A stretch of DNA of 25,797 nucleotides, taken from the IMG/VR virus record IMGVR_UViG_3300008267_001532, positions 1-25,797 of that record; one strand, 5' to 3'. Origin of the DNA: a virus. Under the pieces are notes generated by a model. It saw nothing but the letters and a program-made list of their open reading frames with translations. It was not told the DNA's origin and ran no database searches. This document shows positions 1 to 19,420 of this stretch, piece after piece (position 1 is the stretch's first letter; each line of letters opens with the position of its first letter). Made by a program: the position numbers and the translations under genes.

Positions 1-143
1 AACTCGGCGAACTTTTCCAAATGCTCTGAGGTGATACCAACATTCCATTTAACTCGTTCTGGCATACCCGAATCTGGCATAACCAAATCCATCAAGATAG
101 CGCCAGCTTGTTGTTCAGCAAGTTCTCGAATTCTTTCGTTCAT
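1..143 (-). CDS. EKFAxLI-family small phage protein, partial (C-terminus off window)
   Basis: The ATG lies at 143..141 and the frame is open to the left edge, so only the first 47 residues are visible. The protein begins MNERIRELAEQQAG and reaches HLEKFAE at the edge. This N-terminal MNxxIxELAEQ followed by EKFAxLI is shared with the small proteins at 2594-2821, 21558-21779 and 23201-23407. Its ATG overlaps the ligase stop as ATGA, so it is probably translated from the same message. The family is common in large phages and has no function that I know of. Confidence 0.7.
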   Translation of the reverse strand, partial: MNERIRELAEQQAGAILMDLVMPDSGMPERVKWNVGITSEHLEKFAE

Positions 144-1009
144 TTATCATCCCTGAATCTAACAAAGCGAGGGAAACGCAAACTGTAAGTGCCATCTTGG
201 TTCTGTGTAATCACATCACATAAGACTTCAGCAGTTCGACCAATGACCAAATTACGGTTAGTCCAATAGTCATCTCTATCAACATCACTAAAGCCACTAC
301 CCACATTGACTGTAATTTCTTTCCCGTCGTCAACTCCATGACAAACAAGTGCTCCAAGTCTTCCCAAATTTCTACCAGTTCCTTCTTCAACACCTACGAC
401 CTCCAAGTCTACAGTTAATGTTGGTTTCCATTTCATCCAATCTGTGCTACGTTTACACAGATATGGGGCTTCTAATTCTTTAATCATAATGCCTTCAAAT
501 CCTGCATTCACATTGTCTTTAGCATATCGTTCAAGTTGATCCTTACCTGCGGCTGTATCTAAGTCAACCATGATATGTGGTAATAGTTCAACGTTAGGCA
601 TTGTATCAACTACATGCCGAATATGTTCAAGTATAGCAATACGTTTACGCAGTTGAGCATTCCAATGACCTTCACGGAAATCACTTAATGGAATAATGTC
701 AAAAATATTAAACACACTGTCATCTGCTTGTACATCAGTCTTACGGCGTGCCTGTCGCATCAGTTCTTGGAAAGTATTACCGATCACTTCACCATCTAAT
801 ACGAACCCGTTAATCAATGCGTTCTGATGTCCTCTGGCAATCTTAACAAAGTTGTCGCTAATCTGTTTTTCAATGTGTGTAAAGTTATCAAACACTTTAC
901 CATTACGGCTGTAGCAAACTGTAGTTACACCCTCACTTGCTCCGGGTATTACAAACATCAATACACGCACACCATCTAACTTAGGCTCTAAACGTTTAGT
1001 GCCCTTCAT
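140..1009 (-). CDS. ATP-dependent DNA ligase, catalytic part (split gene)
   Basis: Adenylation and OB domains of a T4-type ATP-dependent ligase, which seals nicks during phage DNA replication and repair. Visible motifs are the AMP-binding lysine in KLDGVR (K10 from the chosen start), SRNGK (34-38), LDGE (71-74), EGIMIK (172-177) and KWKP (193-196), followed by an OB-like C-terminus ending in RFPRFVRFRDDK. The N-terminal domain is encoded separately at 1011-1397. The chosen ATG (1009..1007) lies one base after the TGA of that gene, so translation is probably coupled. The frame is open further upstream to 1066, but that part overlaps the first gene and looks unlike a ligase. T4 ligase has about 35 residues between its RDLxxGAS and KADG motifs; roughly 20 of these are missing here. 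The whole enzyme could be two chains, a +1 frameshift product, or a broken gene. Confidence 0.85.
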   Translation of the reverse strand: MKGTKRLEPKLDGVRVLMFVIPGASEGVTTVCYSRNGKVFDNFTHIEKQISDNFVKIARGHQNALINGFVLDGEVIGNTFQELMRQARRKTDVQADDSVFNIFDIIPLSDFREGHWNAQLRKRIAILEHIRHVVDTMPNVELLPHIMVDLDTAAGKDQLERYAKDNVNAGFEGIMIKELEAPYLCKRSTDWMKWKPTLTVDLEVVGVEEGTGRNLGRLGALVCHGVDDGKEITVNVGSGFSDVDRDDYWTNRNLVIGRTAEVLCDVITQNQDGTYSLRFPRFVRFRDDK

Positions 1010-1010
1010 C

Positions 1011-1397
1011 TCAGATTGTTTTATCTGAAATGCCTGCACGTAAATCTCTACGAATAACAGGAGCACAGAATGTATTCCATTCTATACTATCAAAACGTTC
1101 ACTCATTTCATTGATAGCATCTAGTGCGGCATTGCCTGACAAATCACGGTGTGACAATAGTGTAAGCAATGTATTAAAATCACTCCAAGGGTTTTCTGCA
1201 TCAACAATACCTACAGTATCAGGTACTTTACGCACACCGAATGTAACGTAGGGATTGTAACAAGCTTTAGTCAAACCCAGAAAAATCTGAGCATTTGTGC
1301 TACCAAGGACACTTGCCTCTAATGCTTGTTTAATAACATCTTCCTTGTGCAGGCGACTATCTGATTCATTCAGTTTGTTAATCCATGAAGCGGACAT
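1011..1397 (-). CDS. ATP-dependent DNA ligase, N-terminal domain (split gene)
   Basis: This 128-residue product matches the helical N-terminal domain of T4-like DNA ligases. It has a LSGNAALDAI segment (T4: LTGNAAIEEL) and ends in RRDLRAGISDKTI, which corresponds to RRVMMRDLECGAS in T4 gp30, just before the catalytic domain. It stops at TGA (1013..1011). The catalytic domain continues in the +1 frame, beginning with an ATG one base later. The start follows directly on the stop of the upstream gene (TAAATG), with an AAGAAGA ribosome-binding site. A ligase domain ending abruptly at this conserved point suggests a deletion of the linker that also shifted the frame, or else a deliberate split. 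Confidence 0.8.
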   Translation of the reverse strand: MSASWINKLNESDSRLHKEDVIKQALEASVLGSTNAQIFLGLTKACYNPYVTFGVRKVPDTVGIVDAENPWSDFNTLLTLLSHRDLSGNAALDAINEMSERFDSIEWNTFCAPVIRRDLRAGISDKTI

Positions 1398-13295: not shown

Positions 13296-14501
13296 ATGAA
13301 ATTTACAGAAATTGATGAAGGCAAAACAGGTTTATGGGCAAACATTCATGCTAAACGTGAACGTATTAAACATGGGTCAGGTGAAAAAATGCGTAAGCCT
13401 GGTAGCAAGGGCTCACCTTCTGCACAAAATTTTAAAGATGCATCTAAAACAGATGAATCCTCATTAAACGAAAAATGGTCACAAAAATACAAGAGTTCTA
13501 TCAATTGTAGTCACCCAAAAGGCTTCTCACAAAAAGCTCATTGTGCTGGAAAAAATAAACAAAACGAAAGTGTTGAGATGGAAATGACTTGCCCGGATTG
13601 CGGCATGTGCAAATCACACGGTAATCTCAATGAGATTAAAAAGGGTCAAAAAGACAGTAATGGGTTTACTAAATGCTGGCCAGGCAAACATGCTGAAGGC
13701 ACCAAGAAGGGCAAAAATGGTGGACAAGTTCGTAACTGTGTGCCTAACGAATCGCAAGGTGTGGCGGAAGGCTCACAAAGAGTTGATTCACTTGTTACCG
13801 ACGCATTAAAAATAATGAAGGGCCCTGAAATAAGGGATGCTATACTAGCATTAAAAACTGTTCTAGGGGACAGAGAATATAATGACCGTCGTGGTTTTTA
13901 TAATTTCTATGTTAAACAAATACTTGACATGTATGGCCAGCAAGGTTTAGCGGAAGCAAAAGACCCATGGAAAGATTATGAATTTATACACAATGGTCAA
14001 AAAATAGGACACATATATAGTCAGACAGGTCAACCTCCCTTTACAACTAGAAGAAAAGTTGGTAAATTTATAAAACAAATGAAGCATAACAGCCTTAAAG
14101 ATGCTCAGACGTATTTAATTAATCGATCATTAGGTAGACCAATGTATCAAGACATGAGTATAGATGAAGACTGGCAGAAAGTCAACAAGAGTGACAAGAC
14201 TGACGGCATGAGTAGTAAAGCTGTTAAATCATATCGTAGAGAAAATCCAGGTAGTAAACTAAAGACTGCTGTAACTACAAAGCCAAGCAAACTCAAAAAA
14301 GGTAGCAAAGCCGCTAACCGTCGTAAATCATTCTGTGCTAGAATGGGAGGCATGAAGAAAGCACATGCAAGTGCTAAAACTAAACGTGATCCTGATAGTC
14401 CAATCAATAAAGCACTACGTAGATGGAACTGCGAATCTATTCAACAAATGCAAGAACTAGTAATGATTGCAGAACAAAAAATCAGGAACCTCAAGAAATG
14501 A
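13296..14501 (+). CDS. Modular basic Cys-containing protein, probable head-associated protein
   Basis: A 401-residue modular chain. An N-terminal MKFTEIDEG leader is followed by ANIHAKRERIKHGSGEKMRK (about 15-34), then a PKGFSQKAHCAG module, TCPDCGMC (98-105), GFTKCWPGKHAEGTKKGKNG (123-142) with RNCVP, a helical section, and a C-terminal basic module KSFCARMGGMKKAHASAKT with DPDSPINKALRRWNC. I recall each of these short modules from other large-phage proteins. Several LNE, LAE and VAE sites lie between modules and would suit a T4 gp21-like prohead protease ((I/L)xE). High Lys/Arg content suggests DNA binding inside the head. It is first in the plus-strand cluster; its stop overlaps the next ATG. 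Function is inferred from layout only. Confidence 0.7.
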   Translation: MKFTEIDEGKTGLWANIHAKRERIKHGSGEKMRKPGSKGSPSAQNFKDASKTDESSLNEKWSQKYKSSINCSHPKGFSQKAHCAGKNKQNESVEMEMTCPDCGMCKSHGNLNEIKKGQKDSNGFTKCWPGKHAEGTKKGKNGGQVRNCVPNESQGVAEGSQRVDSLVTDALKIMKGPEIRDAILALKTVLGDREYNDRRGFYNFYVKQILDMYGQQGLAEAKDPWKDYEFIHNGQKIGHIYSQTGQPPFTTRRKVGKFIKQMKHNSLKDAQTYLINRSLGRPMYQDMSIDEDWQKVNKSDKTDGMSSKAVKSYRRENPGSKLKTAVTTKPSKLKKGSKAANRRKSFCARMGGMKKAHASAKTKRDPDSPINKALRRWNCESIQQMQELVMIAEQKIRNLKK

Positions 14502-16246
14502 ATTTCCAAGAATTGTTTGAAGGTGCAACACCCAAATTACCCGGAGCAACTAAGGGTATTAAAGTAATGAGCATGGATCAATTCCTTGCCCAATCTAATG
14601 ACGAAAAGATAGATGAGATGTCCTCAGAAGAATTAGATAAAATGTCTCCTGAACAATTAGCACATTATACTAGTGATGCTAGAAATAATAAAATTAAAAA
14701 ATTAAATCCCGACTCAATTGATAAGGCTTATAGTAAAAGCATTTCTATAATGTTTCCTGATAGTGATAAACGTAGTAAACAATCTACAAATCATAAACAA
14801 GAAGTAGACGAAGGCTTTATGGGTGATGCATACAATAAATTAAAATCAATTGTATTAAGAGTCTTAGGTAAAAAAATAATCAAAACAAAGGACGACCAAC
14901 TTGCTTTTCAGCGTATGATGAGTAAAGTTACAGGGCCACTTGATACTTCTCAGTATGCAAGATTATGGAAAGAATATAAAAACAATAAACATTATTATGT
15001 TTCGTTGCCAACACCTCAAGATTTTTACAATGACCAAAAAACGTATTTATGGGCTAATAGTATATCACAATTTGTAATGGATAGATTCCCAGAGGCTTCA
15101 AGAGAAGCATTACTCCACACAGTAGAGGGACTAACTCAGTTAGCAGTAAAAGAATTTAGACAGAAATATCGAGACTTAGATGAAGCAACAAAACTACCTG
15201 CGCAAACACGTGAACTTAAAGGTCAAGAACTAGATGATTACTTAGATAGAATTCGTAATCGTGAAAAGGGTAAGACAGACAAATATAAATTACCATATAT
15301 TCACCGTTCAAGTGTAGTAAAATACTACAATGAAGAAGGTAAGAAATACGATACTGATAAAATAAAACAAGCATTAGGCGTTCGTCCAGCTAAACTTCTT
15401 AAACAAAATGAGAAGATGAAACATAGTAATGGTGAACTAGAGCAATTTTATAACATTGGTTTTGCTGCTCTAGTTGGTATTGCATTAGATGAAAACACTA
15501 ACGAACTAATCGTAGTTAATACATGTCCAGGTGCTGGTTCATGTAAAATAGATTGTTTCGCTATGAAGGGCGGTAAAGTTCAATTCGAAGGTCCTTGGTT
15601 AAGCGACGGGAGAATTCTTACATTCTTATTGAATGATCCTGATGGTTTCTTCAATCAACTAAGTGCAGATATTACAAAAGAAGAAAAGAAAGCACAAAAA
15701 GGTGGTTACAATCTAACTATTCGTTGGCATGATGCTGGTGATTTCTTCAGTCCAGAATATCAAGACCTAGCGTTTAAGCTAGCGGCAGCACACCCTGATG
15801 TTAAGTTTTATGCTTACACAAAGATAGCAGATGCGGCATTAGGTCAAAAACCAAGTAACTTTATTGTTAATTGGAGTGAAGGTGCAAGCACAAGCCAAGA
15901 GAAACAAGTTAAACAACAAGATCCTCAATTAGATATAACTAAGAATAGTCGTATTGTTCCAAGTAAGTTGTTCTATGACTTATTGAAGAAAGATGAGAAG
16001 GGTAACTTAGACAAGACTGAAGACGGTGCATGGCAACCACGTGATGGTGCAGCACTAGAAGAATTAAAAGATAGATTAGCAAATCAATATAATCTAAAAC
16101 GAGAAAGCATCATCAGCTATAGTGAAATGATGTCCATTCCTGAGAAGAACAACATTAAGAAATGGAACGTTATCATTGCTCCAGGTGAGGGTGATATCAG
16201 TGCTAACAGACAGGATGTGTTGTCTACCTTACTATTGAAGCACTAA
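14498..16246 (+). CDS. GP88-like domain protein with a capsid-targeting-like leader
   Basis: The start is the ATG at 14498 (MNFQELFEGATPKLPG), overlapping the upstream stop as ATGA; an in-frame ATG at 14423 lies deep inside the upstream gene and is rejected. The product is 582 aa. The N-terminal third is charged and probably disordered (MSSEELDKMSPEQ). After a second leader-like LDEATKLPA, the C-terminal half has NTCPGAGSCKIDCFAMKGG (cysteines at about 343, 349, 353) and IRWHDAGDFFSPEY, the signature of the Gene product 88 family first named in mycobacteriophages, described as radical-SAM-like. The reaction is unknown. The cysteine triplet could hold a metal or Fe-S centre. Context suggests packaging in the head. 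Confidence 0.72.
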   Translation: MNFQELFEGATPKLPGATKGIKVMSMDQFLAQSNDEKIDEMSSEELDKMSPEQLAHYTSDARNNKIKKLNPDSIDKAYSKSISIMFPDSDKRSKQSTNHKQEVDEGFMGDAYNKLKSIVLRVLGKKIIKTKDDQLAFQRMMSKVTGPLDTSQYARLWKEYKNNKHYYVSLPTPQDFYNDQKTYLWANSISQFVMDRFPEASREALLHTVEGLTQLAVKEFRQKYRDLDEATKLPAQTRELKGQELDDYLDRIRNREKGKTDKYKLPYIHRSSVVKYYNEEGKKYDTDKIKQALGVRPAKLLKQNEKMKHSNGELEQFYNIGFAALVGIALDENTNELIVVNTCPGAGSCKIDCFAMKGGKVQFEGPWLSDGRILTFLLNDPDGFFNQLSADITKEEKKAQKGGYNLTIRWHDAGDFFSPEYQDLAFKLAAAHPDVKFYAYTKIADAALGQKPSNFIVNWSEGASTSQEKQVKQQDPQLDITKNSRIVPSKLFYDLLKKDEKGNLDKTEDGAWQPRDGAALEELKDRLANQYNLKRESIISYSEMMSIPEKNNIKKWNVIIAPGEGDISANRQDVLSTLLLKH

Positions 16247-16731
16247 TGAGAGCAAGTGAGTTCATAGTAGAAGCAGTGGGTAATGATTATCTTTATCATG
16301 CTACGCAACCAGCGGCAATGTTGCATATACTAGACAAGGGCTTATTAAAAGCAAGCTATCGTCCTCAACAAGCAACTATAGCAAGAACCAATGCTCCCAC
16401 AATTAGTACAACTCGTTCGAGGCATTATGCTGAATCAGATGAATTTATTGATAATTTAAATCTAACATATGATGGTAATGCAGTAATTCTTGTATTGGAT
16501 AGACCCTCTATTGCTAATCAATATAGAATGTTTAGTTCTAGTCAAGGTACACAAACATTCGGTGATGAATATGAAGAAGTAATTGTCGTACCTAAAGGTT
16601 CTATGCCAGTTCGTGGTAAGATAAAGGGTTTCTATTTTAATCCAAACAGAAGAAATACAATAAAAGATTACGAAGATGTTCCTTGGTTTACAAGATTACT
16701 TAACAGTCCTTATTTACTAAATAGAAAATGA
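16246..16731 (+). CDS. ADP-ribosyltransferase-like protein with capsid-targeting-like leader
   Basis: The 161-residue product begins MRASEFIVEA, then NDYLYHATQPAAMLHILDKG with H18, an ISTTRSRHYAES strand (53-64), VILVLDRPS and FGDEYEEVIVV (E108-E111). The order H…(S/T)-T-x-R…(E/Q)-x-E is that of H-Y-E type ADP-ribosyltransferases, which transfer ADP-ribose from NAD+ to a target. T4 Alt is an injected ADP-ribosyltransferase that modifies host RNA polymerase, so a head-packaged role is attractive. The same module starts the protein at 17906. The ATG overlaps the upstream stop as TAATG. The fold is inferred from short motifs; the target is unknown. Confidence 0.6.
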   Translation: MRASEFIVEAVGNDYLYHATQPAAMLHILDKGLLKASYRPQQATIARTNAPTISTTRSRHYAESDEFIDNLNLTYDGNAVILVLDRPSIANQYRMFSSSQGTQTFGDEYEEVIVVPKGSMPVRGKIKGFYFNPNRRNTIKDYEDVPWFTRLLNSPYLLNRK

Positions 16732-17402
16732 GAGCAAAAGAATTCATTACTGAAATAACCCGCCGTGACTTACTTAGAGGTGTAGGTGCAGCCGCAATTG
16801 GCTCAGCAATACCTACCGCACAAGCAGGAGAGTTCCAACGTTGGAATACTTGGAAAGATCCTAAAACTGTAGATATGTGGGATAAACGTTGGAAACAATT
16901 AAATGTACGTGTTGAACAGGTTTATAATAAACTTAGATCAATGTTAACACCTGAACAACTTAAACAGATAGGTAAACTATCATATGAAGTAGCAGAACTT
17001 TGGTCGGCAGGTTCATATAAAGACGGTGTTATCAAAATAGACCTAAGTATTTTTTGGGACCTAAGTAACGATGTATTAGCATACACTATTGCACATGAAA
17101 TGGGACATGCATTTTATAAGCACAATGGATATGCTAATCAGACTACCGCACAAAATAGAAAAAATGAATTATTGGCGGATGCATTTGGAGCAAAACTAGC
17201 ATACAAGGCGGGATATGATCCTAATAAAGCATTTGGTTATATGACTAAAAAAGAAAAAATTGAGGATTTAGGTGATAGAACGCATCCTGGATATAAAGAG
17301 CGTATCAACTATATTAAACAACAGACAGATATAACTGTAAGTCATATTAAACGAGGAGTAGACCTAATCGGTGTACCCATGAGTCAAATAGCACAAGCAT
17401 AA
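16728..17402 (+). CDS. M48-type zinc metallopeptidase with capsid-targeting-like leader and Tat-like segment
   Basis: The product (224 aa) begins MRAKEFITEI and runs straight into TRRDLLRGVGAAAIGSAIPT-AQA, which looks like a twin-arginine signal (RRDLLRG, hydrophobic core, AQA cleavage site at about 31-33). The catalytic part has AHEMGH (H123, E124, H127), a third ligand in NELLADAFG (E147) and RTHPGYKERI (185-194), the order seen in M48-family peptidases. It should cut proteins in a zinc-dependent way. Combining a head-type leader with an export signal would suit a protein carried in the particle and then moved to the host envelope, but that is inference. The ATG overlaps the upstream stop as ATGA. 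Confidence 0.82.
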   Translation: MRAKEFITEITRRDLLRGVGAAAIGSAIPTAQAGEFQRWNTWKDPKTVDMWDKRWKQLNVRVEQVYNKLRSMLTPEQLKQIGKLSYEVAELWSAGSYKDGVIKIDLSIFWDLSNDVLAYTIAHEMGHAFYKHNGYANQTTAQNRKNELLADAFGAKLAYKAGYDPNKAFGYMTKKEKIEDLGDRTHPGYKERINYIKQQTDITVSHIKRGVDLIGVPMSQIAQA

Positions 17403-17403
17403 C

Positions 17404-17904
17404 ATGAGAGCAAACGAATTTATTGCTGAAGCACATCATAGTATATACAAAACTGTGAATATAGGGCCATGGCGTGTACAAATTGATACTCATGCAATAA
17501 CAAGTATGGCAGCAAGAAATGTTTCAGCGTCAGATTTAAGTGATATTGTAACTTATGCATGTGGTTTTCCTAATATATTAGATACAATACCAATTGGTAA
17601 AGGAGCTTATTTTCAAGACGTTAGTAGTATGATTAGTGTATACTTTCATAGATTAAGTGAAAACGAAATAAGGGTAGAAACAGTACTAAGTCCTGACATG
17701 AAACCAAAACCACCAATGTTTCGTAGACCTGTACCTAAAACTAATAGAAAACCTACTCCCGCAATGCAACAACGTACAGAGTACATGGCTCAACAGACCC
17801 GAGAGTTAGGACGTGATGCAGTAAGTCAAAAATTAGCAACTATTGCAAATATGAATAGAGCAGATCGCCGTGCGCTTAAGCGTTCTAGTAAAAGAAAAAA
17901 ATAA
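17404..17904 (+). CDS. Small DUF4258/BrnT-like domain protein with capsid-targeting-like leader and basic tail
   Basis: The product (166 aa) begins MRANEFIAEA, nearly identical to the T4 internal-protein leader in its EFIAEA core. Residues 20-95 have VQIDTHAITSMAARNVSASD, then IVTYACG and a final RVETVLSPDMK. This order (HAxxxMxxRxVSxxD… followed by beta strands ending in xxTVL) resembles DUF4258 and BrnT/RelE-type ribonuclease folds, and I recall similar phage proteins with the same leader. The C-terminal 60 residues are rich in Lys/Arg/Pro (ADRRALKRSSKRKK), suggesting nucleic-acid contact. A toxin-like RNase is possible but unproven. It starts one base after the metallopeptidase stop. Confidence 0.62.
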   Translation: MRANEFIAEAHHSIYKTVNIGPWRVQIDTHAITSMAARNVSASDLSDIVTYACGFPNILDTIPIGKGAYFQDVSSMISVYFHRLSENEIRVETVLSPDMKPKPPMFRRPVPKTNRKPTPAMQQRTEYMAQQTRELGRDAVSQKLATIANMNRADRRALKRSSKRKK

Positions 17905-17905
17905 A

Positions 17906-19420
17906 ATGAGAGCGAATGAATTCATTATTGAAGCAGTTGGTGGCGACTACATTTATCATAGTGTAGCTCAACCTAATCAAATATGGAACATACTCAGAAA
18001 AGGTGTGATACAACCGCATTTATCAGACACAGATGAAGAAGGTGGTTGGGAAATACCAGTAATCAGTGCAAGTAGAAATCAATATTATAGATTCCCATAT
18101 GGTGGTGGCAGTATTCAACTTGTGTTAGATAAAAATGCATTACGTCAAGCTGGATTCAAAGTAATGCCATTCTCTTATATGCAATTCTATAATCAACTAG
18201 ACGGTACTGGTCCTACTGCTAGTAATCCAATGTATAAACAAGAAACAGAAGAACGTATCTATCATCCAAGAGGTATAGGTATCCCTGTTAAGAAACCATA
18301 TGTTTTAGGCATACAGATACGTAAAGAACTAATGAATAAAGTACCAGAAGGTCTATTGAAATTGATTAATGATAGTGGTTTAGAATTAACTACAATGAGA
18401 GATGATCCTACTAATAAAGGCACATTCTCACGCAAGTTAGCTAAACCACCATTGAATAGTAAACATTACTATAAGCCAAATGAAGTTCAAATAGTAGCAA
18501 GGAGAGACAATCCAGATGGATATACATTATGGAGTGTTACACCTGATGGCTTAATCTTGCCGATTGGTGATACCGGTGACACTAAAGTTGGCTTAACAAA
18601 ACAAAAAGCAATAGATGCATTTAAGAGATTAACAGGTGGCAATCCAAAAGAAATTCAAAACGTTATTAAATATGATGGTACGTTTAAAGCGAATTATTAT
18701 CACGATGAATCCGGTGGACCACGAATAGAACTATACAACTGGGTTCCTCCTATCGTAAAAACGAACAATGAAATAACTGAAGCACCCTTACCAGCTGATT
18801 GGGATGCAAGTCAATATAGCCCTGGCTCTACATTCAAACAACGACTAGGTTATGCATTAGAACGTGCTAAACGTATTGGTAGTGGCTCTAGTCGCATTGC
18901 TACTGATATTGAATATGAAGGTCGTCCTACTGTTCTTAAAATAGCTAAAAATAGAATGGGTTTAGCACAAAACAATGTAGAAGTAGATATACTAGATGAT
19001 GGATATGCTAGTCAGCTTGGTATACTAATACCTATGATTGACTATGATAAACAGAATCGTGAACCTACTTGGATACACACTGAGTTAGCACAAAAAGCTA
19101 CTGAGAAACAACTTGCTGAACTGATGGGTGTTGATTCATTAAATGAAATAGTTCAATTGGCTACTGCAATGTCTGGTAAGAGTAAACTATATAATTATCA
19201 ACAATTGATTGCTCATATGAAGAAGAAAGGCAAGTCAGAAGAACAGATTGACACTGCTAATGAATACGCAAACAAGTTGGTTGATTTAAGTTCATCATAT
19301 GAGGTTGAGTTAGGTGATCTTAATAGAAAAGCAAACTGGGGATTATATCAAGGTAAACCTGTTATCATCGATGCAGGTGCTAATAGTAATTTCTTTACTC
19401 AGTTTTTTCCGGGACGCTAA
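17906..19420 (+). CDS. ADP-ribosyltransferase-like plus kinase-like fusion protein with capsid-targeting-like leader
   Basis: The start is MRANEFIIEA at 17906, one base after the upstream stop; an ATG at 17870 lies inside the upstream gene. The product is 504 aa. Residues 14-150 repeat the ADP-ribosyltransferase-like module (DYIYHSV, VISASRNQYY, GSIQLVLDKNAL, KQETEERIYH). A middle domain follows. At about 289-293 there is EITEAPLP, a perfect prohead-protease-like site, after which a kinase-like domain begins: TVLKIAKN (K345), QNNVEVDIL (E359), DLNRKANWG (D471, N477) and VIIDAG (D489), the order of protein-kinase-like phosphotransferases. Both modules keep their likely catalytic residues. The gene ends in a 26-base convergent overlap with the epimerase gene. 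Confidence 0.68.
   Translation: MRANEFIIEAVGGDYIYHSVAQPNQIWNILRKGVIQPHLSDTDEEGGWEIPVISASRNQYYRFPYGGGSIQLVLDKNALRQAGFKVMPFSYMQFYNQLDGTGPTASNPMYKQETEERIYHPRGIGIPVKKPYVLGIQIRKELMNKVPEGLLKLINDSGLELTTMRDDPTNKGTFSRKLAKPPLNSKHYYKPNEVQIVARRDNPDGYTLWSVTPDGLILPIGDTGDTKVGLTKQKAIDAFKRLTGGNPKEIQNVIKYDGTFKANYYHDESGGPRIELYNWVPPIVKTNNEITEAPLPADWDASQYSPGSTFKQRLGYALERAKRIGSGSSRIATDIEYEGRPTVLKIAKNRMGLAQNNVEVDILDDGYASQLGILIPMIDYDKQNREPTWIHTELAQKATEKQLAELMGVDSLNEIVQLATAMSGKSKLYNYQQLIAHMKKKGKSEEQIDTANEYANKLVDLSSSYEVELGDLNRKANWGLYQGKPVIIDAGANSNFFTQFFPGR

Follow-up and report, generated by a model that had tools for sequence, protein, structure and literature searches.

Why should a single giant-phage gene carry two enzyme-like modules joined by what reads as the cleavage site of a capsid-maturation protease? 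The question is raised by the IMG/VR virus record IMGVR_UViG_3300008267_001532, a 25.8-kb fragment from an uncultured virus that was analyzed over its whole length of 25,797 nucleotides (hereafter the window), and it concerns an open reading frame (ORF) of 504 amino acids (aa). An earlier note, made from the letters alone, had described this ORF as an ADP-ribosyltransferase (ART)-like module and a kinase-like module connected through a protease-like site, and the ORF, its coordinates (Table 1) and all the residues named there (K345, E359, D471, N477, and D489 as well as EITEAPLP at 289-296) are present as described. We consider it likely that the 504-aa protein is a capsid-packaged polyprotein cargo, which would be cut by the prohead protease so that two effectors are delivered.

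The protein starts with a leader that ends in L/I-x-E as in T4-type internal proteins: T4 IpII/IpIII begin with MKTYQEFIAEA (AF158101.6) and the 504-aa protein with MRANEFIIEA, having EFIxEA in common. In T4, the first ten residues of IPIII are enough for packaging, and gp21 cleavage follows L/I-X-E (PMC9026906). With a strict leader pattern (M-[RKQ]-x-[EDQ]-[FILVY]-[ILVF]-x-E), 149 leader-bearing proteins were found in the fetched loci (designated here by L and a number). A different N-terminal leader, MKIQLA[LV]A, is shared by four close genes of Pseudomonas phage Lu11 (L170 408-3636), two of them belonging to a second ART family, one being GNAT-like and one ART-like; it is possibly another packaging signal.

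The fold of the N-terminal module was modelled with AlphaFold2 from the first 187 residues and a 48-sequence alignment (A8), giving a predicted template modelling score (pTM) of 0.70. The full-length model, built on a shallow alignment, had been poor for this part; including the second ART family, taken from 80 loci, resolved it. When compared with solved structures, the model matched DarT in Foldseek (E 6e-5), and in VIA it matched Tpt1 with a Z of 11.3 (111 residues, 3.3 Å) and DarT with a Z of 9.9 (137 residues, 3.7 Å), other ARTs ranking below these two in Z. An Alt-like ART was also considered and is less probable but still conceivable, DarT and Tpt1 being the best structural matches and the other ART classes listed scoring lower. 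H18 and E115 are conserved in 48/48 aligned sequences and Y61 in 47/48, while S54, R57, and E113 are also invariant in the 48 homologues. The module is thus, by model and alignment conservation, a predicted DarT/Tpt1-like ART with putative catalytic residues of the H-Y-E type, a fold that leaves open either nucleic acid or protein as the putative modified target. DarT and Tpt1 (KptA) are its best structural matches, yet Pfam and PDB searches detected no sequence similarity to them; none of the Pfam ART families matched the 504-aa protein by sequence, and neither an ART nor a kinase domain was named by the Pfam and PDB sequence searches. ART-PolyVal/DUF3990 gave a sub-threshold match only, to another cargo protein in L014.

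In the full-length model, most of the C-terminal module has a predicted local distance difference test (pLDDT) score of 82-97. All of the 50 best Foldseek matches are to protein kinases or to phosphotransferases of the kinase fold; in VIA, PRPK/Bud32 matches best (Z 9.2, 148 residues, 3.9 Å). Among 18 homologues, K345, E359, N477, and D489 are invariant and D471 is conserved in >90%. The usual kinase C-lobe is missing because the chain stops 15 residues past D489, and 17 aligned homologues end similarly, shortly after this residue. As modelled, the module is a protein-kinase fold with catalytic-type K, E, D, N, and D. It belongs to PHROG 4301 (E 1e-8 to 1e-14), a family previously without function to which a kinase fold is now assigned on the strength of the prediction. 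Both predicted folds therefore bear out what the earlier note had proposed: H18, Y61, and E115 of its H-Y-E module are conserved in a fold matching DarT and Tpt1, and the five residues named for its kinase-like module are conserved in a C-terminal part that matches kinases only.

Searched as a single sequence, the kinase module gave no relatives, and a search with a three-sequence alignment found 24 viral contigs; at this latter sensitivity, none was detected in 84,980 bacterial and archaeal genomes. Most of the 24 contigs have a standalone kinase gene with its own leader, whose core [LI]xE stands directly before PLPxDWD; standalone genes occur, for example, in Xanthomonas phage XacN1 (ORF170; MKQVRLSQFLSEAPLPDDWD) and Alishewanella phage Slicko01 (MKIYNLYSTLLEAPLPDDWD).

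The two modules meet at EITE/APLP (a slash marks the predicted cut), where residues 288-294 have a pLDDT <50 in the full-length model and are predicted to form a flexible linker. The earlier claim that this seam repeats the leader pattern holds insofar as a site does lie between the modules; ITE, however, is not the protein's own leader ending, which reads IIE/A, but that of the neighbour at 16728 (ITE/I). The same point is a border in related phages. The DNA of the window resembles that of L002 as far as the Glu-Ala codons of the site, where the resemblance stops. The ART module forms a whole gene ending at the seam position in L003, L004, and L007; its counterpart in L002 and L005 is fused at this point to an M48 peptidase with a twin-arginine translocation (Tat) signal (NNELAE/AISRRDLLKG). 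The kinase module, in turn, stands behind a GNAT-like module in L014 (VWEEEVLDE/MPLP) and L015 (VWEEAALGE/APLP) and follows different modules in L011 and L119, while the GNAT of L014/L015 is placed before a different ART in L164 (VWEEEQLTE/AAS). Judged from these alignments, related phages exchange enzyme modules exactly at the L/I/V-x-E seam site.

Two further arrangements were observed in these loci. In L119 (1397-3852), the gene with the kinase-module fusion is followed immediately by one with an ART-family fusion, and the two enzymes are thus also neighbours on separate chains. A small basic module (NFADGKKPGRKG...), perhaps DNA binding, forms the start of whole genes in L124, L166, L113, L137, L045, and others, and is also internal or C-terminal after [LV]xE in many proteins.

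The generality of the seam was surveyed in ~1,900 proteins from all fetched loci, a seam being defined as a module that has a strict N-terminal leader elsewhere and is internal (at least 40 residues in) in another protein. This yielded 67 distinct seams with 57 distinct upstream/module pairs, figures that are to be read as effect sizes and not exact probabilities, because the seams are not all independent. An [ILV]xE motif lies at most 4 residues from the mapped cut in 51/67 seams (76%) and 44/57 pairs, and exactly there in 43/67, compared with 11.3% of random internal positions in the same proteins. Mapped directly, without a search window, P3 is I/L/V in 47/67 (70%; background 18%) and P1 is E in 53/67 (79%; background 6%), while P4 is hydrophobic or aromatic ([FILVY]) in 21/67 (31%; background 25%) and, by definition, in all strict leaders. 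Internal seams thus keep P3 and P1 and lose P4, which means that the cleavage half of the leader is retained and the targeting half lost. The motif alone is not rare (there are five [ILV]xE in the 504-aa protein); what is beyond chance, on sequence grounds, is its position at module seams, recurring in many unrelated fusions.

Tat signals provide a separate argument. Using the pattern [STND]RRx[FLIVM][LMIVF]xG, 11 distinct Tat-like signals were found, all of which start within 3 residues of an [ILV]xE site (chance ~7% each, with homologous copies among the 11 lowering their independence). Four stand behind an N-terminal leader and seven are internal (residues 85, 85, 112, 112, 291, 295, and 916), and an AxA motif follows downstream in 8/11. 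A Tat signal works only at the N-terminus, therefore the internal ones would be useful only once the chain has been cut there, which argues for cutting independently of the ART and kinase evidence. Two long proteins illustrate the arrangement: in L051 (11528-15865), whose 1,445 aa seem to string several modules together, a Tat-like signal lies right behind AVDE/AD, at residue 916, and a further module comes after DLDE/NLHKWFQEKWVRFG, and in L046 (1775-3496) a GP88-type protein has an internal Tat-like signal behind NVNE/A that ends in a lipobox-like GVAGC. No relevant paper on Tat signals in prohead-protease cargo was found in the mostly open-access literature searched.

The protease itself is present in the relatives. 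The prohead protease family PF03420 was found in 9/14 records with relatives, including XacN1, Slicko01, and the 352-kb contig that holds L004, the near ART homologue. Strong matches to gp23 (PF07068) occur in exactly the nine records with PF03420; the records without the protease also lack gp23, save for one weak fragmentary match, and are probably incomplete, since gp23 is missing too. In 14 further records PF03420 was not found, and none of the 3 checked for gp23 has it (0/3), so that these are probably fragments. The T4 record gives gp23 as cleaved by gp21, and in 7 of the nine gp23 proteins the last [LI]xE precedes S, T, or E and stands shortly before the conserved mature part, in a gapped region corresponding to the LTE/A of T4 gp23; the protease of the relatives therefore very probably shares the L/I-x-E specificity. 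The seam sequence, the seam statistics and the gp23 sites together point to a chain whose domains are set apart by sites for the protease of the virus itself, as in virus-type polyproteins. Together with the T4-like leader, the prohead protease present in every record that has gp23, and the Tat signals behind the sites, they also favour the protease-site interpretation of EITEAPLP put forward earlier.

Combining these elements, one chain would be translated and its T4-like leader would take the precursor into the prohead core. During head maturation, a gp21-type protease would cut past L/I/V-x-E at E9, which takes the targeting half off, and at E292, which sets the modules apart; the latter cut would leave the ends TNNEITE and APLPADWDASQYSPGSTFK, where the uncut chain would read TNNEITEAPLPADWDASQYSPGSTFK. 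The products kept in the head would be a 31.9-kDa ART fragment (10-292) and a 23.6-kDa kinase fragment (293-504), both of which would be ejected with the DNA and may modify host macromolecules early in infection. The same site would serve as the border for swapping cargo modules in these phages.

Several points weigh against a packaged and cut polyprotein. Cleavage is predicted from sequence, and the enzyme activities are likewise predicted. At the mapped place, 16/67 seams show no motif; one of these is the window's own seam, which was missed owing to two consecutive sites in the query. The density of [ILV]xE over whole leader-bearing proteins is not raised, and as a cargo test it was discarded, since it does not separate cargo from other proteins and only position does. 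The window has no head genes, and the protease is seen in relatives only. Finally, the pairing of ART and kinase was found in the window only, the kinase being absent from six ART relatives and the window-type ART from 24 kinase relatives; in the sequences compared, the pairing is unique at present and the seam site is general.

The exact switch of the DNA at the GAAGC of the site, and the fact that the kinase did have its own leader, would also suit a recombination scar, in which leader-coding sequences recombine, the internal ITEA is an inert leader remnant and the fused two-domain enzyme works uncut. We consider this unlikely: a scar should retain the adjacent leader residues, but retention drops sharply from P3 to P4, and internal Tat-like signals directly behind sites would be useless without a cut. 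It is quite improbable that the ART part is a long propeptide, which targets the chain and is then cut off and lost or degraded, with the kinase alone delivered. Propeptides of 111-254 residues, mostly cleared, are described for head proteins of SPN3US (PMC10052503, PMC5694885), although one N-terminal fragment, that of gp47, remains in the head; moreover, the ART catalytic-type residues are invariant in the 48 homologues (save the single exception at Y61), and the same module is a complete standalone gene in L003, L004, and L007. That the 504-aa protein is neither packaged nor cut and its common N-terminus has another purpose is highly improbable: packaging of the leader-bearing family is something we infer, and some relatives from the second ART family in other phages have no such leader or a different one, but the leader closely matches T4 internal proteins, the cargo set (ART, GNAT, kinase, peptidase, cell-wall hydrolases) suits packaged effectors, and chitinase, lipase, and peptidase were detected by mass spectrometry in XacN1 virions (PMC5852040), a finding that concerns their presence there.

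The proposed packaged polyprotein has its closest counterparts in T4, where IpI-III and Alt, which are capsid-targeted, gp21-processed and injected, have a short leader ending I-x-E/A as here, the prohead protease belongs to the same Pfam family as in the window's relatives, and Alt is also an ART. T4 cargo, however, gives one mature product per chain, whereas here a second enzyme stands behind an internal site, and the best fold matches of the window ART are DarT and Tpt1. In phiKZ, 201phi2-1, and SPN3US, a gp21-related protease cuts ejection proteins after x-x-E, sometimes several times; the sites given in the accessible text (PMC5694885, PMC10052503) remove propeptides, and two enzymes from one chain are not described there. 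The polyvalent proteins of phages and conjugative elements are another counterpart (PMC5512222): their injected chains, of up to 15 domains, bring together ARTs, protein kinases, GNATs, and peptidases, their kinases also lack the C-lobe, and they show cassette-like recombination; the 504-aa protein likewise has predicted ART and kinase domains on one chain, which would be injected. The earlier statement that no described protein has this arrangement was thus too strong. Release of their domains is proposed to occur via embedded peptidase domains, and the passages considered describe no capsid-protease sites at module borders (PMC5512222); Pfam/PHROG searches found no peptidase domain in the 504-aa protein. 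In the open-access literature searched, capsid-protease sites were not found described as borders at which effector enzymes are exchanged.

The neighbourhood of the ORF (Table 1) has the same character. It is the last of four genes in a row (starting at 16246, 16728, 17404, and 17906), whose products all start with MRAxEFIxE. In the M48 protein of this row, the Tat-like signal follows the leader site immediately (MRAKEFITE/ITRRDLLRGVGAAAIGSAIPTAQA), a hint that the protein, once cut, is exported to the periplasm of the next host; for the 166-aa product, domain assignment was attempted and none was obtained. In the GP88-domain proteins of the window, L002, L005, and L007, whole inserted segments differ, each flanked by [VLI]xE[AG], and one of these inserts carries a Tat signal. 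The DUF6321 protein has a seam at SIDE/DWQKVNK. An 86.5%-identical protein is common to the window (140-1066) and the 352-kb relative (L080 18127-19503), and leader-bearing amidoligase-domain proteins of ~790 aa adjoin the ART genes in L003 (2067-4424) and L004 (4884-7262).

Table 1. Features of the 504-aa ORF and its upstream neighbours, in positions of the window.
Feature	Position	Strand	Basis
ORF, 504 aa: leader, ART-like module, linker site, and kinase-like module	17906..19420	+	
Capsid-targeting leader, residues 1-9 (MRANEFIIE), predicted cut before A10	17906..17932	+	T4 IpII/IpIII pattern
ART-fold core, ~residues 10-168; H18 17957-17959, Y61 18086-18088, E115 18248-18250	17933..18409	+	AlphaFold2, conservation
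Small alpha/beta region between ART core and seam, ~residues 190-265	18473..18700	+	pLDDT mostly 61-86, full-length model
Seam EITEAPLP, residues 289-296; predicted prohead-protease cut E292/A293	18770..18793	+	
Kinase-fold module (predicted), residues 293-504; codon starts K345 18938, E359 18980, D471 19316, N477 19334, D489 19370	18782..19417	+	
DUF6321 protein, several [ILV]xE sites between re-used modules	13296..14501	+	Pfam DUF6321 1.9e-11
GP88-domain protein	14423..16246	+	Pfam GP88 3e-26
ART paralogue, 161 aa, leader MRASEFIVE/A	16246..16731	+	
M48 metallopeptidase, leader MRAKEFITE, then directly Tat-like signal (ITRRDLLRG...AQA)	16728..17402	+	Pfam M48 3.4e-9; Tat scan
166-aa leader-bearing protein, MRANEFIAE/A	17404..17904	+	

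By analogy, the packaging and cutting logic would be that known from T4 Alt and the internal proteins, and several effectors per injected chain would be as known from polyvalent proteins; cuttable chains are probably the form in which these phages package mixtures of enzymes for delivery. For giant T4-type phages in general, we regard the chances as evenly balanced that the capsid-maturation protease, rather than a domain of the chain, releases packaged polyprotein enzymes, that cassettes are shuffled at L/I/V-x-E, and that the cut unmasks Tat signals, some cargo thus reaching the periplasm of the next host only after it has passed through a capsid. The finding would provide a sequence rule by which injected effectors, mostly annotated as hypothetical at present, could be found in uncultured giant phages: a T4-like leader, then modules flanked by L/I/V-x-E. 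It would also offer a route by which ARTs, kinases, acetyltransferases, peptidases, and cell-wall enzymes may be swapped among these phages, and would link head maturation to effector release, perhaps also to protein export in the next host.
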